Assembly (NCBI RefSeq): GCF_936916975.1
Contig: NZ_CAKZGO010000004.1
Coordinates: 1-64,000 of the forward strand
Reading direction: 5' to 3'
Length of the DNA stretch: 64,000 bases
Source: an uncultured Dongia sp.
GTDB taxonomy: Bacteria > Pseudomonadota > Alphaproteobacteria > Dongiales > Dongiaceae
Under the pieces are notes generated by a model that was given only the letters and a program-made list of their open reading frames with translations, searched no databases and was not told the origin of the DNA. The translations under genes and the position numbers were made by a program. Below, one piece after another: positions 57,269 through 60,307 of the stretch. The number at the start of each line of letters is the position of its first letter. Position 1 is the first letter of the stretch.

Positions 57269-57480
57269 TTTTTGCGCAAAAGGCATGCTATGGTGTGATA
57301 TTAATGCTCATATGTTGATCAGGGAAATTTCCATCAAATTTGAGCTAATTACCGGGGTCTCGACACTTCATTAACTTCTTGCGCAGATAATCAGCGAATC
57401 GTGCAAGAGACCCGCCGCCTACAGGTTGCGGGCAGCGTGGGCAACGGGATAGCGAAGCCGCTATCCATGTGAGGTCGCGG

Positions 57481-57762
57481 ATGATGACATTGCCACCCGA
57501 CGACCTGAGCCAGTCGGACACCATTGACGACCAGTCAGCGCAAGACCAGATCACGCGGCTGGTTTCGGAACGCGCCAGCTATGGCGAGCAAAAGAATGCC
57601 ATCCACAGAGCCATCTACCGGCGCCGGCTGCGTGACGAAATGCAGCGTGTCTGGGGCACCGACGATTTACCCCAGGCACCGACAAGCCGGCCTCTATACT
57701 ACTATCTGGCCCTGACCGGGATGGCCGGATTTCTCGTGCTCCTGCTGGCCGTGCTGATCTGA
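57481..57762 (+). CDS. Hypothetical small protein with C-terminal membrane helix
   Basis: A 93-residue protein, acidic and helical in its N-terminal two-thirds (DDQSAQDQITRLVSERASYGEQKNAIHRAIYRRRLRDEMQRVWG) and ending with a membrane helix (YYYLALTGMAGFLVLLLAVLI). The ATG at 57481 has GAGG 6 bases upstream; a second ATG follows at 57484. Tail-anchored topology is suggested. Not recognised. Confidence 0.6.
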   Translation: MMTLPPDDLSQSDTIDDQSAQDQITRLVSERASYGEQKNAIHRAIYRRRLRDEMQRVWGTDDLPQAPTSRPLYYYLALTGMAGFLVLLLAVLI

Positions 57763-58091: not shown

Positions 58092-59426
58092 ATGGACATG
58101 ACCGAGATCCAGGCCAAGCTCGATGCGCTCGAGAAGGCCACAGCCATGACGAACACGCTCAATTCCGAGATGTTCTATTGGTGGTGTACCGCCCTGATGA
58201 TCGCCATTCACGCCGGGTTCCTGGCCTATGAAATGGGGGCGTCGCGGGCCAAGAATGCGCTCGCCTCCGGCATCAAGAACATCCTCGCCTTCGCCTTCAT
58301 CACGCCGACCTTCTTCTTCTTCGGCTGGTGGATCTATCTCGCCTTCCCGACCGGCTTCAGCATTTCGGAAGCAGGTGCTGCCGGCCTGCCCTGGTCAGCC
58401 AATATGGGTCCGAACCTCGCCGACAATGCCTCGGGCATCTTCTGGGCAGCCTTCACCCTCTTTGCCGCCACCACTGCCTCGATCATGTCCGGTTCGGTCA
58501 TCGAGCGCATCCGCATCTCCGGCTTTACCATCCTCGCCGTCATCCTGGGTTCCGCGGTATGGATTCTAGGCGCTGCCTGGGGCTGGCATCCGCAGGGCTG
58601 GCTGTCGACCGAATGGGGCCTCCACGATGTGGGCGCCGCGGGCTGCGTGCACATGATCGCCGGTTTCTTCACCTTGGGCGTCCTCATCAATCTGGGGCCG
58701 CGCATCGGACGCTTCAACACCGACGGCACGGCCAATGACATGCCGGGCCACAACATGCCGATGTCGCTCATCGGCCTGATGCTGATCGTCATGGGCTTCT
58801 TCGGCTTCCTCGGCGGCTGCATCATCTATACCGGGAGCGAATGGACCACGATCTACGGCACGCCGACAACGCTCTCGGCCTTCGCCTTCAACACCTTGAT
58901 GGGCGTTTCGGGCGGCATGATCGGCTGCTATCTCGCCACCCGTGATCCATTCTGGATGATGTCCGGCGCGCTTGTCGGCGTCATCTCATCGGCGTCCGGG
59001 CTAGATGTCTACTTCCCGGCCTTCGCCTTCATCATCAGTTTTGCCGGTGGGTTGGTGATCCCCTCGATCAACAATCTGCTGATCAAGCTGAAGATCGACG
59101 ATGCGGTCGGCGCGGTGGCGGTGCACGGCTTTGGTGGTGTCTGGGGCATCATGGCCGTCGGCATCTTCGCCGCCGGTTATCCCAACATCACCGGCCCGGA
59201 AGTCTCCTTCATGGGCCAGTTCAAAAGCATGATCGTGTTCGCCCTGCTGGGTTTTGTGCCGGGCTATGTGTGCTCGCTCGTCCTCAAGAAGGTGGGCCTG
59301 CTGCGCACCAACCAGGGCGCCGAGATCGCCGGTCTCGACATGGCGGAAGTGCCCGTCGCCGCCTATCCGGAAAGTGCCATTCCGGCCTATGCCAAGTCAC
59401 CCTCGGTCCCGGCACCGGCTGAGTAA
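58092..59426 (+). CDS. amt: Ammonium transporter (Amt/MEP/Rh family)
   Basis: A 444-residue protein with about 11 membrane helices that passes ammonium/ammonia. The twin His are present (GCVHMIAGF and AVHGFGGVWG), as is the Asp before the first one (HDVGAAG) and the selectivity-related SGSVIERIRISGF. The N-terminus has a polar stretch (MDMTEIQAKLDALEKATAM) instead of a clear signal. The C-terminus is shorter than in E. coli AmtB, where GlnK docks, and no glnK gene is adjacent, so PII control through a linked partner is not seen. GGAGAG precedes the ATG. Confidence 0.93.
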   Translation: MDMTEIQAKLDALEKATAMTNTLNSEMFYWWCTALMIAIHAGFLAYEMGASRAKNALASGIKNILAFAFITPTFFFFGWWIYLAFPTGFSISEAGAAGLPWSANMGPNLADNASGIFWAAFTLFAATTASIMSGSVIERIRISGFTILAVILGSAVWILGAAWGWHPQGWLSTEWGLHDVGAAGCVHMIAGFFTLGVLINLGPRIGRFNTDGTANDMPGHNMPMSLIGLMLIVMGFFGFLGGCIIYTGSEWTTIYGTPTTLSAFAFNTLMGVSGGMIGCYLATRDPFWMMSGALVGVISSASGLDVYFPAFAFIISFAGGLVIPSINNLLIKLKIDDAVGAVAVHGFGGVWGIMAVGIFAAGYPNITGPEVSFMGQFKSMIVFALLGFVPGYVCSLVLKKVGLLRTNQGAEIAGLDMAEVPVAAYPESAIPAYAKSPSVPAPAE

Positions 59427-59471
59427 GACACCTCCAGCACAGATGAGTCATCTTCAGAAAGGAACCAGCCT

Positions 59472-59639
59472 ATGAACACCTCACCGATCACCAGCTGGGA
59501 CGGGGCCGAGGCATACTTCACCTTTGCCGACAAGCCGGCCGTCCTGGTGGCACTCGTCCTTATCGCCGCCGGCATTTGCGTCGGTGGCATCATCAGCATG
59601 ATTCGCCACGAGAGCTATTCCTACAAAAAGTTCGAATAG
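59472..59639 (+). CDS. 55-residue single-span membrane protein behind the ammonium transporter
   Basis: A small gene starting with ATG at 59472, with AAAGGAA 7 bases upstream, 45 bases behind the amt stop and directly before the terminator at 59655. Translation gives MNTSPITSWDGAEAYFTFADK, then one hydrophobic helix (about residues 22-44, PAVLVALVLIAAGICVGGIISM) and a short polar tail IRHESYSYKKFE. The good ribosome site, the position between amt and terminator and the membrane helix all support translation. It is probably co-expressed with the transporter and may be a subunit or regulator of it. I know of no named family. Confidence 0.75.
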   Translation: MNTSPITSWDGAEAYFTFADKPAVLVALVLIAAGICVGGIISMIRHESYSYKKFE

Positions 59640-59654
59640 GTCGGTCTCAGCAGG

Positions 59655-59686
59655 AAGCCGCCGGCAGCGATGCCGGCGGCTTTCTT
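59655..59686 (+). terminator. Terminator of the amt operon
   Basis: AAGCCGCCGGCA, loop GCGA, TGCCGGCGGCTT (perfect 12-bp stem), followed by TCTT. The stem is very stable. Confidence 0.88.
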
Positions 59687-59704: not shown

Positions 59705-59745
59705 CAAAACAAAACCGCCCGGCACCTTGTGGGCACCGGGCGGTT
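59705..59745 (-). terminator. Terminator of the phasin gene
   Basis: On the minus strand AACCGCCCGG and CCGGGCGGTT form a 10-bp stem with a 13-base loop, followed by TTGTTTTG. It ends the phasin transcript 47 bases behind its stop codon. Confidence 0.85.
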
Positions 59746-59791: not shown

Positions 59792-60307
59792 TTACTTCTT
59801 CGCAACCTTGGCAACAGCGGCCTTCACTTCTTCGATCTGGTCGACGAAGCGGCTCTGGATGAGCGAGGCAACTTCCGTGTTCGACTTCTGCACGAGATCC
59901 GTGAGCTCACGAACGTTGGCAACGGCCTGCTCGAAGCCGGCCTTGGTCAGCTCGGCCTGCTTCACGAACTTCTCTTCGGCGCTGGTCGGCTCGGCCAGTT
60001 CCTTGGCAACCTTGCCGAACTCTTCAACCGCCTTGCGGGCGATTTCAGCCTGGCGCTGGGCCACGGCCTTGACGCCTTCGAAGGCGGCCTGGTTGGCGGC
60101 GGTCAGAACTTCGAAGTTCTTCTTCTGGGCAGCAACGACGCCTTCGAAATCGAAGAGGCCGGCTTTGCCGTTGGCGAAGGTCTTCGTGTAATCACCGAAC
60201 CACTTGCCGAAATCGGCCTGGATCTTGGTGAAGTCCATCTTGGTGAAATCCGGGAAAGCCGGGGTCGTCGGGGTGGCGGTCTCGAACGTGCTCTGGGTCT
60301 TGGCCAT
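59792..60307 (-). CDS. Phasin family protein
   Basis: A 171-residue, almost fully helical protein of the phasin family, which coats polyhydroxyalkanoate granules and controls their size. N-terminal part is Pro/Phe-rich (FPDFTKMDFTKIQADFGKWF), followed by amphipathic helices (GVVAAQKKNFEVLTAANQAAFEGVKAVAQRQAEIARKAVEEFGKVA) and an Ala/Lys tail. No Cys and no membrane segment. GGAGACG lies just before the ATG. Two PhaR-type boxes lie upstream. Confidence 0.93.
   Translation of the reverse strand: MAKTQSTFETATPTTPAFPDFTKMDFTKIQADFGKWFGDYTKTFANGKAGLFDFEGVVAAQKKNFEVLTAANQAAFEGVKAVAQRQAEIARKAVEEFGKVAKELAEPTSAEEKFVKQAELTKAGFEQAVANVRELTDLVQKSNTEVASLIQSRFVDQIEEVKAAVAKVAKK

Follow-up and report, generated by a model that had tools for sequence, protein, structure and literature searches.

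The window analysed here, a 64,000-nucleotide stretch of DNA from an uncultured Dongia sp., carries an ammonium transporter (amt) gene on its forward strand at 58092–59426, and 45 nt behind the stop codon of amt, on the same strand, a small gene at 59472–59639. Its 55-residue product (MNTSPITSWDGAEAYFTFADKPAVLVALVLIAAGICVGGIISMIRHESYSYKKFE, by translation of the frame) is a predicted membrane protein that is classed as an A-type Amt companion from its ATG-initiated frame, the location of its relatives behind Amt genes, and purifying selection. The original prediction, which was made from the sequence alone, pointed out an unlisted 55-residue frame with a good ribosome-binding site, and both are in place: the frame opens with ATG, and the ribosome-binding sequence AAGGA, at 59459–59463 on the forward strand, lies 8 nt ahead of it. 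The product is divided into an N-terminal segment (residues 1–21, MNTSPITSWDGAEAYFTFADK; 59472–59534), which is the best-conserved part in alignments and is predicted to lie outside, a single transmembrane helix of about residues 22–44 (59535–59603), and a basic C-terminal tail of 11 residues that starts with Arg-His-Glu (59604–59636), is predicted to lie inside, and contains the conserved residues His46 and Glu47.

A GC-rich hairpin, an inverted repeat with 15-nt arms that are 93% complementary, follows the small gene at 59652–59685. The hairpin is plausible as the operon terminator, with a weak T-run and no entry in the terminator-scan list; the proposed placement of the small gene between amt and a terminator thus stands on the amt side and is only plausible on the other. 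No sigma-54 site stood out in the window, where a loose pattern matched 26 times against 32 matches expected by chance, and no sigma-70 site stood out in the window scan. Convergent with the small gene is a phasin gene on the reverse strand at 59792–60307 (Phasin_2, E 1.5e-20), which has a terminator-like site of its own at 59745–59713, and upstream of amt lies a 97-residue ORF (57469–57762) that has a C-terminal hydrophobic stretch and matches neither Pfam nor NCBIfam.

No Pfam or NCBIfam model reached its cut-off for the window's small protein or for seven diverse relatives (eight proteins in all), and the P-II model PF00543 is absent among the window protein's matches up to E 1. Searched with its own sequence (E 0.001), the protein has one copy in its own genome. 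Kyte–Doolittle analysis reveals one hydrophobic segment, with a best 19-residue mean of 2.9 from residue 23, and AlphaFold2 models the protein alone as a short helix at residues 9–15 and a long helix at residues 22–54, the N-terminus being poorly fixed (pLDDT 64–66). The single membrane helix described earlier is therefore recovered by both approaches. In contrast, conservation does not center on the Gly motifs in the helix or on the Tyr/Lys-rich tail, which had also been singled out: W9, G11, and E47 are conserved in at least 90% of 41 diverse A-type rows, and W9, G11, T17, H46, and E47 are invariant in 48 closer A-type rows. The topology is likely N-out/C-in, since Lys and Arg are more numerous after the helix than ahead of it in 76 of 90 distinct A-type sequences (11 equal, 3 contrary) and in 32 of 33 distinct B-type sequences (1 equal). 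A conserved Glu marks the predicted inner membrane edge of the tail in both forms. The window protein thus displays the features by which the companion family is recognized, namely an aromatic N-terminus, one transmembrane helix, a basic tail, and a gene directly behind an Amt of the superclade formed by branches A and B.

A search of 84,980 species, each represented by one genome, with a peptide pattern conserved among six relatives yielded 126 confirmed places. Among the best 80 of these 126, which were kept, every small gene (80 of 80) lies behind a same-strand Amt gene, the Amt aligning only in part at three loci (L055, L065, and L070). These 80 include Alphaproteobacteria (Thalassospira, Salipiger, Rhizobiaceae, and Pelagibacterales), Gammaproteobacteria (Amphritea, Neptuniibacter, and Halochromatium), and Bacillota (Gracilibacillus, Alteribacillus, Aquibacillus, and Paenibacillus), and counts of taxa within them mean little because the set is uneven and was chosen on the small protein. 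On plasmids, BLAST with the small protein alone matched 1 record and BLAST with its Amt matched 11; BLAST misses diverged members of the small-protein family. In all seven of the 11 Amt-matched records that were examined, a CDS of 58–71 residues annotated as 'hypothetical protein' lies behind the Amt; six of these products score 27–69 bits with the profile and the seventh (L132) scores 54 bits. The L132 record is a Pseudomonas aeruginosa plasmid (LT969519.1, 433912–446049), in which the neighbors of the Amt and small protein are annotated as a betaine-aldehyde dehydrogenase, an aminomethyltransferase, and a dioxygenase subunit. Viral contigs contained no relative of the small protein and none of the window Amt, the latter in a query with one protein, which detects only close relatives.

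The association was also followed from the transporter. The window Amt, searched at E 1e-50 in 385 alphaproteobacterial genomes, gave 46 matches, 10 at 58–100% identity (branch A) and 36 at 45–51% identity (branch B), of which four that run off their contigs were left out. The small gene is present behind all 42 complete superclade Amt loci, a count that is not independent because most alphaproteobacterial loci trained the profile. A Pseudomonadota-wide sample of 398 genomes added 11 superclade Amts and contained 9 others that are more distant (31–35% identity); with a profile trained without these loci, the small gene was found behind 11 of the 11 superclade Amts, some of which are close kin of training rows, versus 0 of the 9 outgroup Amts. 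Even screening covered the Alphaproteobacteria and this one phylum-wide sample. The window's own genome encodes three Amts: that of the window, a second one accompanied by a B-type small protein (G000:C3:199627-203031; L128, L205), and a classical Amt, behind which the profile found no small gene.

The companions of B-branch Amts are different small ORFs of 58–84 residues (e.g., MSTIGYESWAVDLADVGAVYPFQGWEVTMTIIGVIFWLGWHRIQF...), which were unseen by the first profile. That profile, A1, was built from the first six sequences and made the family look rare, with 8 clear matches and five more at E 9e-4 to 9e-3; it saw the A type only, the B type being found behind Amts. A hand-made regular expression likewise gave way to profiles, since it failed to recognize 10 genuine members and picked up two unrelated ORFs, which lie behind the outgroup Amts L192 and L198. 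When the B-type protein was searched without reference to Amt, 34 places were found in the 385 alphaproteobacterial genomes, and 32 of them adjoin a B-branch Amt from the Amt-based search; of the other two, one (G379) lies behind the C-terminal part of an Amt that is split between contigs, and one (G199) lies 77 nt from a contig end, its Amt ending at the edge of another contig.

The A-type consensus is MNTSPITSWEGAEAYFTFAD, followed by the helix and HE, and the B-type consensus is SWAxxxADIGAIYPFxGxE, followed by the helix and xEN. The form of the small protein fits the branch of its Amt in 134 of 134 loci (A type with A-branch Amt, 101 of 101; B type with B-branch Amt, 33 of 33); the small proteins of these loci fall into 90 different A sequences and 33 different B sequences, and 61 of the A loci and 4 of the B loci lie outside the profiles. 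In some cases, the window included, one species contributes loci from two collections. The two profiles align with an hhalign probability of 83% (E 8.7e-6), and four Roseobacter-type A proteins score 12–23 bits with the B profile, the medians being about 6 bits for most A proteins with the B profile and about 6 bits for B proteins with the A profile. Because the cross-profile scores are this low, it is the profile comparison, together with a few bridging members, that links the two forms, and they probably constitute one family. In the Amt tree, which was built by a quick method and has long outgroup branches, A, B, and outgroup each occupy one side of a branch (SH-aLRT 97, 98, and 100). Two alphaproteobacterial genomes of 1.4 Mb, both from one family, have a further short ORF about 40–45 nt behind the small gene (L140 and L142); it is 55–56 residues long and has one hydrophobic stretch.

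A Ka/Ks ratio near 1, which the original prediction had named as the sign of a frame that is not conserved, is not what is observed. Between the window and Dongia mobilis, the small genes differ with a dN of 0.176 and a dS of 1.02, and among close pairs, dN/dS is below 0.5 in 249 of 249 usable cases, with a median of 0.125 compared with 0.067 for the Amts of the same pairs. Close pairs were those with Amts at least 85% identical and an Amt pS of at least 0.1, which left 318 pairs, and 69 of these were dropped because dS was zero or saturated or the small-gene pS was at least 0.65. A looser run over all pairs (pS 0.1–0.6) had given a median of 0.66, with 1157 of 1692 pairs above 0.5; it included very distant pairs with saturated synonymous sites, and was therefore repeated on close pairs. 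Judged by its pattern of substitution, the small gene is real, its protein is conserved, and it is under purifying selection.

The product of amt belongs to the Amt/Mep/Rh family (PF00909, E 4e-57; 194 bits, with a cut-off of 23.2) and falls in the A branch of the superclade in the tree. It scores below the cut-offs of the NCBIfam models TIGR00836 amt (205.5 versus 343.3) and TIGR03644 marine_trans_1 (184 versus 514), and the Amt of another genome, G005, is 86% identical to it. Pore and outer-site columns were compared in 139 aligned Amts (97 A, 32 B, and 10 outgroup, with Amts shorter than 380 residues left out); the columns were placed by the motifs of the same genome's classical Amt, and we take them to be those of E. 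coli AmtB S219, Q104, F103, F107, W148, D160, F215, H168, and H318. The pore His pair (window residues 187 and 345) is kept in 129 of 129 superclade rows, as are the Asp before the twin His, the outer-site Trp and Phe, and the Phe gate. The Ser of the outer ammonium-recruitment site, in contrast, is replaced by Cys throughout the superclade (129 of 129; residue 243 in the window) and is Ser in 10 of 10 outgroup Amts; the alignment to the solved Amt-1 of A. fulgidus likewise sets the superclade Cys opposite Ser. The Gln before the outer Phe is replaced by Phe in 129 of 129 superclade Amts and is Gln in 9 of 10 outgroup Amts, and the Phe neighboring this altered Gln position has become Ala in the superclade. 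These changes, Ser to Cys among them, share one branch with the small gene and hence count as one coincidence, not 129. Judged from these columns, the superclade Amts that are accompanied by the small protein share a rebuilt outer vestibule.

The cytosolic tail of the window Amt had been described as unlike that of E. coli AmtB, which applies to the sequence after the GLD motif only, GLD itself being kept; when the last 60 residues are inspected, the pattern G[LMFS][DN] is present in 77 A Amts out of 97, in all 32 B Amts, and in 8 of the 10 outgroup Amts. At its other end, the window Amt (58092–58240) is predicted to open with one 48-residue helix (residues 3–50), so that about 20 helix residues may precede the first membrane helix. 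This extra stretch of helix could lie outside, near the N-terminus of the small protein.

The surroundings of the best 80 of the 126 loci were searched by tblastn (E 1e-12) over stretches of up to 3 kb on each side. A relative of a TMAO demethylase, folate aminomethyltransferase, trimethylamine monooxygenase, or glutamine-synthetase-type gene lies near 61 of the 80, an ethanolamine lyase gene lies near 14, and 16 have none of these genes. Both halves of the TMAO demethylase are found at 20 of the 80 loci, its folate-binding half only at 14, and its front half only at 1; at the remaining 26 of the 61, a glutamine-synthetase-type gene is the only such relative, and it does not necessarily encode a gamma-glutamylmethylamide synthetase; the name 'methylamine-type' for the 61 was dropped as too specific. 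One representative each for TMAO demethylase, trimethylamine monooxygenase, EutB, and type III glutamate–ammonia ligase clears the respective NCBIfam cut-off, and of three glutamine-synthetase-type proteins scored against TIGR03105, one is above the cut-off and two (L120 and L066) are below. Among plasmids, dmm, glutamate-synthase-like, or glnT genes surround the Amt/small-gene pairs of Ruegeria, Ponticoccus (two), and one Thioclava record, and an aminomethyltransferase gene lies near the pair of a Falsirhodobacter plasmid; a second Thioclava record has none of these genes around its pair. In the window's genome, TMAO demethylase and trimethylamine monooxygenase genes lie near each other on contig C19, and a type III ligase gene (674 bits, above the cut-off) lies about 0.5 kb upstream of the B-type Amt on contig C3, on the same strand; no amine/one-carbon or glutamine-synthetase-type gene adjoins the window's own pair. 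It is the neighbor genes alone that suggest methylammonium as a substrate, and its relevance to much of the superclade is rated at somewhat under even odds, lowered from an even chance after a recount of these genes. An amt gene has already been drawn in methylated-amine gene clusters (PMC5520151, PMC7574528); the available portions of these texts mention no small gene behind amt or amtB.

Taken together, the strict pairing, the partner-matched forms, and the single helix argue for a subunit of an Amt complex. The earlier suggestion of a subunit or regulator that is co-encoded with the transporter thus gains strong genetic support, as the small gene occurs at every complete superclade locus examined and its form matches the branch. 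That the small gene encodes a dedicated accessory subunit of the superclade Amt is highly probable, and the explanation as a whole, a dedicated single-pass accessory subunit of one Amt superclade, is given a probability of about 0.7. The small protein would sit in the membrane with its N-terminus outside and its C-terminus inside, against the Amt trimer, with its aromatic N-terminus close to the ammonium-recruiting outer entrance, and it would help to assemble, stabilize, or tune this entrance for ammonium or methylammonium. Action of the N-terminus at the outer vestibule is proposed tentatively, because the conserved part is predicted to lie outside and the vestibule changed on the same branch. 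In an AlphaFold2 model of a read-through Amt–small protein chain, for which the nearest fold is Amt, the conserved N-terminus has a pLDDT of only 43–54, and docking at the vestibule is consequently not supported by the model. A broader proposal, in which superclade Amts, including those of the SAR11 type, would be two-protein transporters instead of homotrimers, with the outer segment completing the rebuilt recruitment site for the uptake or recapture of methylammonium and ammonium in amine-using bacteria, appears rather improbable.

Adjacency to Amt can reflect co-regulation only, and other roles for the product have to be weighed. The main rival is a factor for assembly or stability only, which would aid the insertion of Amt or block its proteolysis and have no role in transport. 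Its size, single helix, and strict co-encoding fit such a factor, MgtS and MgtU are described in the consulted part of a review as acting in this way on their transporters (PMC10710835), and the lack of vestibule docking in the AlphaFold2 model is in keeping with it; however, the best-conserved A-type residues lie in the N-terminal outer segment and not in the helix only, and the branch in question also shows changes at the outer entrance of Amt; this reading is on balance unlikely. Less likely than an accessory subunit, and doubtful in its own right, is the idea, taken from the possible alternative regulator of the original prediction, that the protein stands in for GlnK and controls Amt at its cytosolic face. 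As that prediction noted, no glnK adjoins the window amt, and the sole P-II match in the genome lies beside a glnA-type gene on contig C7. The conserved tail Glu at the inner membrane edge of both forms would also suit a cytosolic regulator. However, the tail of the window protein has just 11 residues, it is the N-terminus, predicted outside, that is best conserved, the Amt tail retains its GLD, and the same genome's classical Amt likewise has no linked glnK, yet has no small gene.

The two remaining alternatives remove the small gene from the transporter or from the proteome altogether. If the protein were a part of amine catabolism, an amine/one-carbon or glutamine-synthetase-type gene would be a natural neighbor, as is seen at the 61 of the best 80 loci; but the small gene also stands behind Amt at the 16 loci, of the window's kind, that have neither such a gene nor an ethanolamine lyase, and this reading is very improbable. 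A chance ORF, leader, or RNA feature, finally, could be suspected from the shortness of the frame and from the unfiltered all-pairs dN/dS median, and is the least credible of all, given the uniformly low dN/dS of the close pairs and the preservation of frame and motifs from Alphaproteobacteria to Bacillota. The preferred reading accordingly remains that of a dedicated accessory subunit.

Bacterial Amts have been studied as homotrimers controlled by P-II proteins. A large Amt branch may well have a second, unrecognized membrane subunit, and if this strictly co-encoded membrane partner is real, experiments with such Amts cloned without it may have been done on half of a transporter. The superclade includes SAR11-type and Roseobacter-type bacteria, ranges from ocean to soil, and is often found near amine-breakdown genes; the route by which ammonium or methylammonium enters such cells can thus be tested directly. 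The nearest solved structures to the window Amt, by sequence and fold, are those of receptor-type Amts, namely Sd-Amt1 (8qj3 and 8qpf; 27–28% identity) and 6eu6 (26% identity), which we take to be Ks-Amt5, and none of the solved chains matches the small-protein profiles. Among the open full-text papers that were listed, no description of a small membrane protein of bacterial Amts was found, and a review of small-protein transporter partners, in its accessible part, names only P-II proteins for Amt (PMC10710835).

Among known systems, the P-II proteins GlnK and GlnB with AmtB resemble the small protein in being tied to an Amt, which it may control in turn. P-II proteins, however, are described as soluble and as plugging the cytosolic side of Amt (PMC10710835, as far as its available text goes), whereas the product found in the window is a 55-residue membrane protein with no P-II match. 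The 61-residue sP36 of Methanosarcina mazei also acts on an ammonium transporter; according to the part of the report that was accessible, it is cytoplasmic under nitrogen limitation, moves to the membrane upon upshift, and works with GlnK1 (PMC10714827). The window protein, in contrast, has a membrane helix of its own. Further parallels are small transporter companions such as MgtS, MgtU, and AcrZ, which forms a single helix against AcrB (PMC10710835, in excerpt); judged by these descriptions, the window protein differs from them in that its partner is an Amt, its gene lies directly behind that of the partner at the loci examined, and it has a conserved outer segment.
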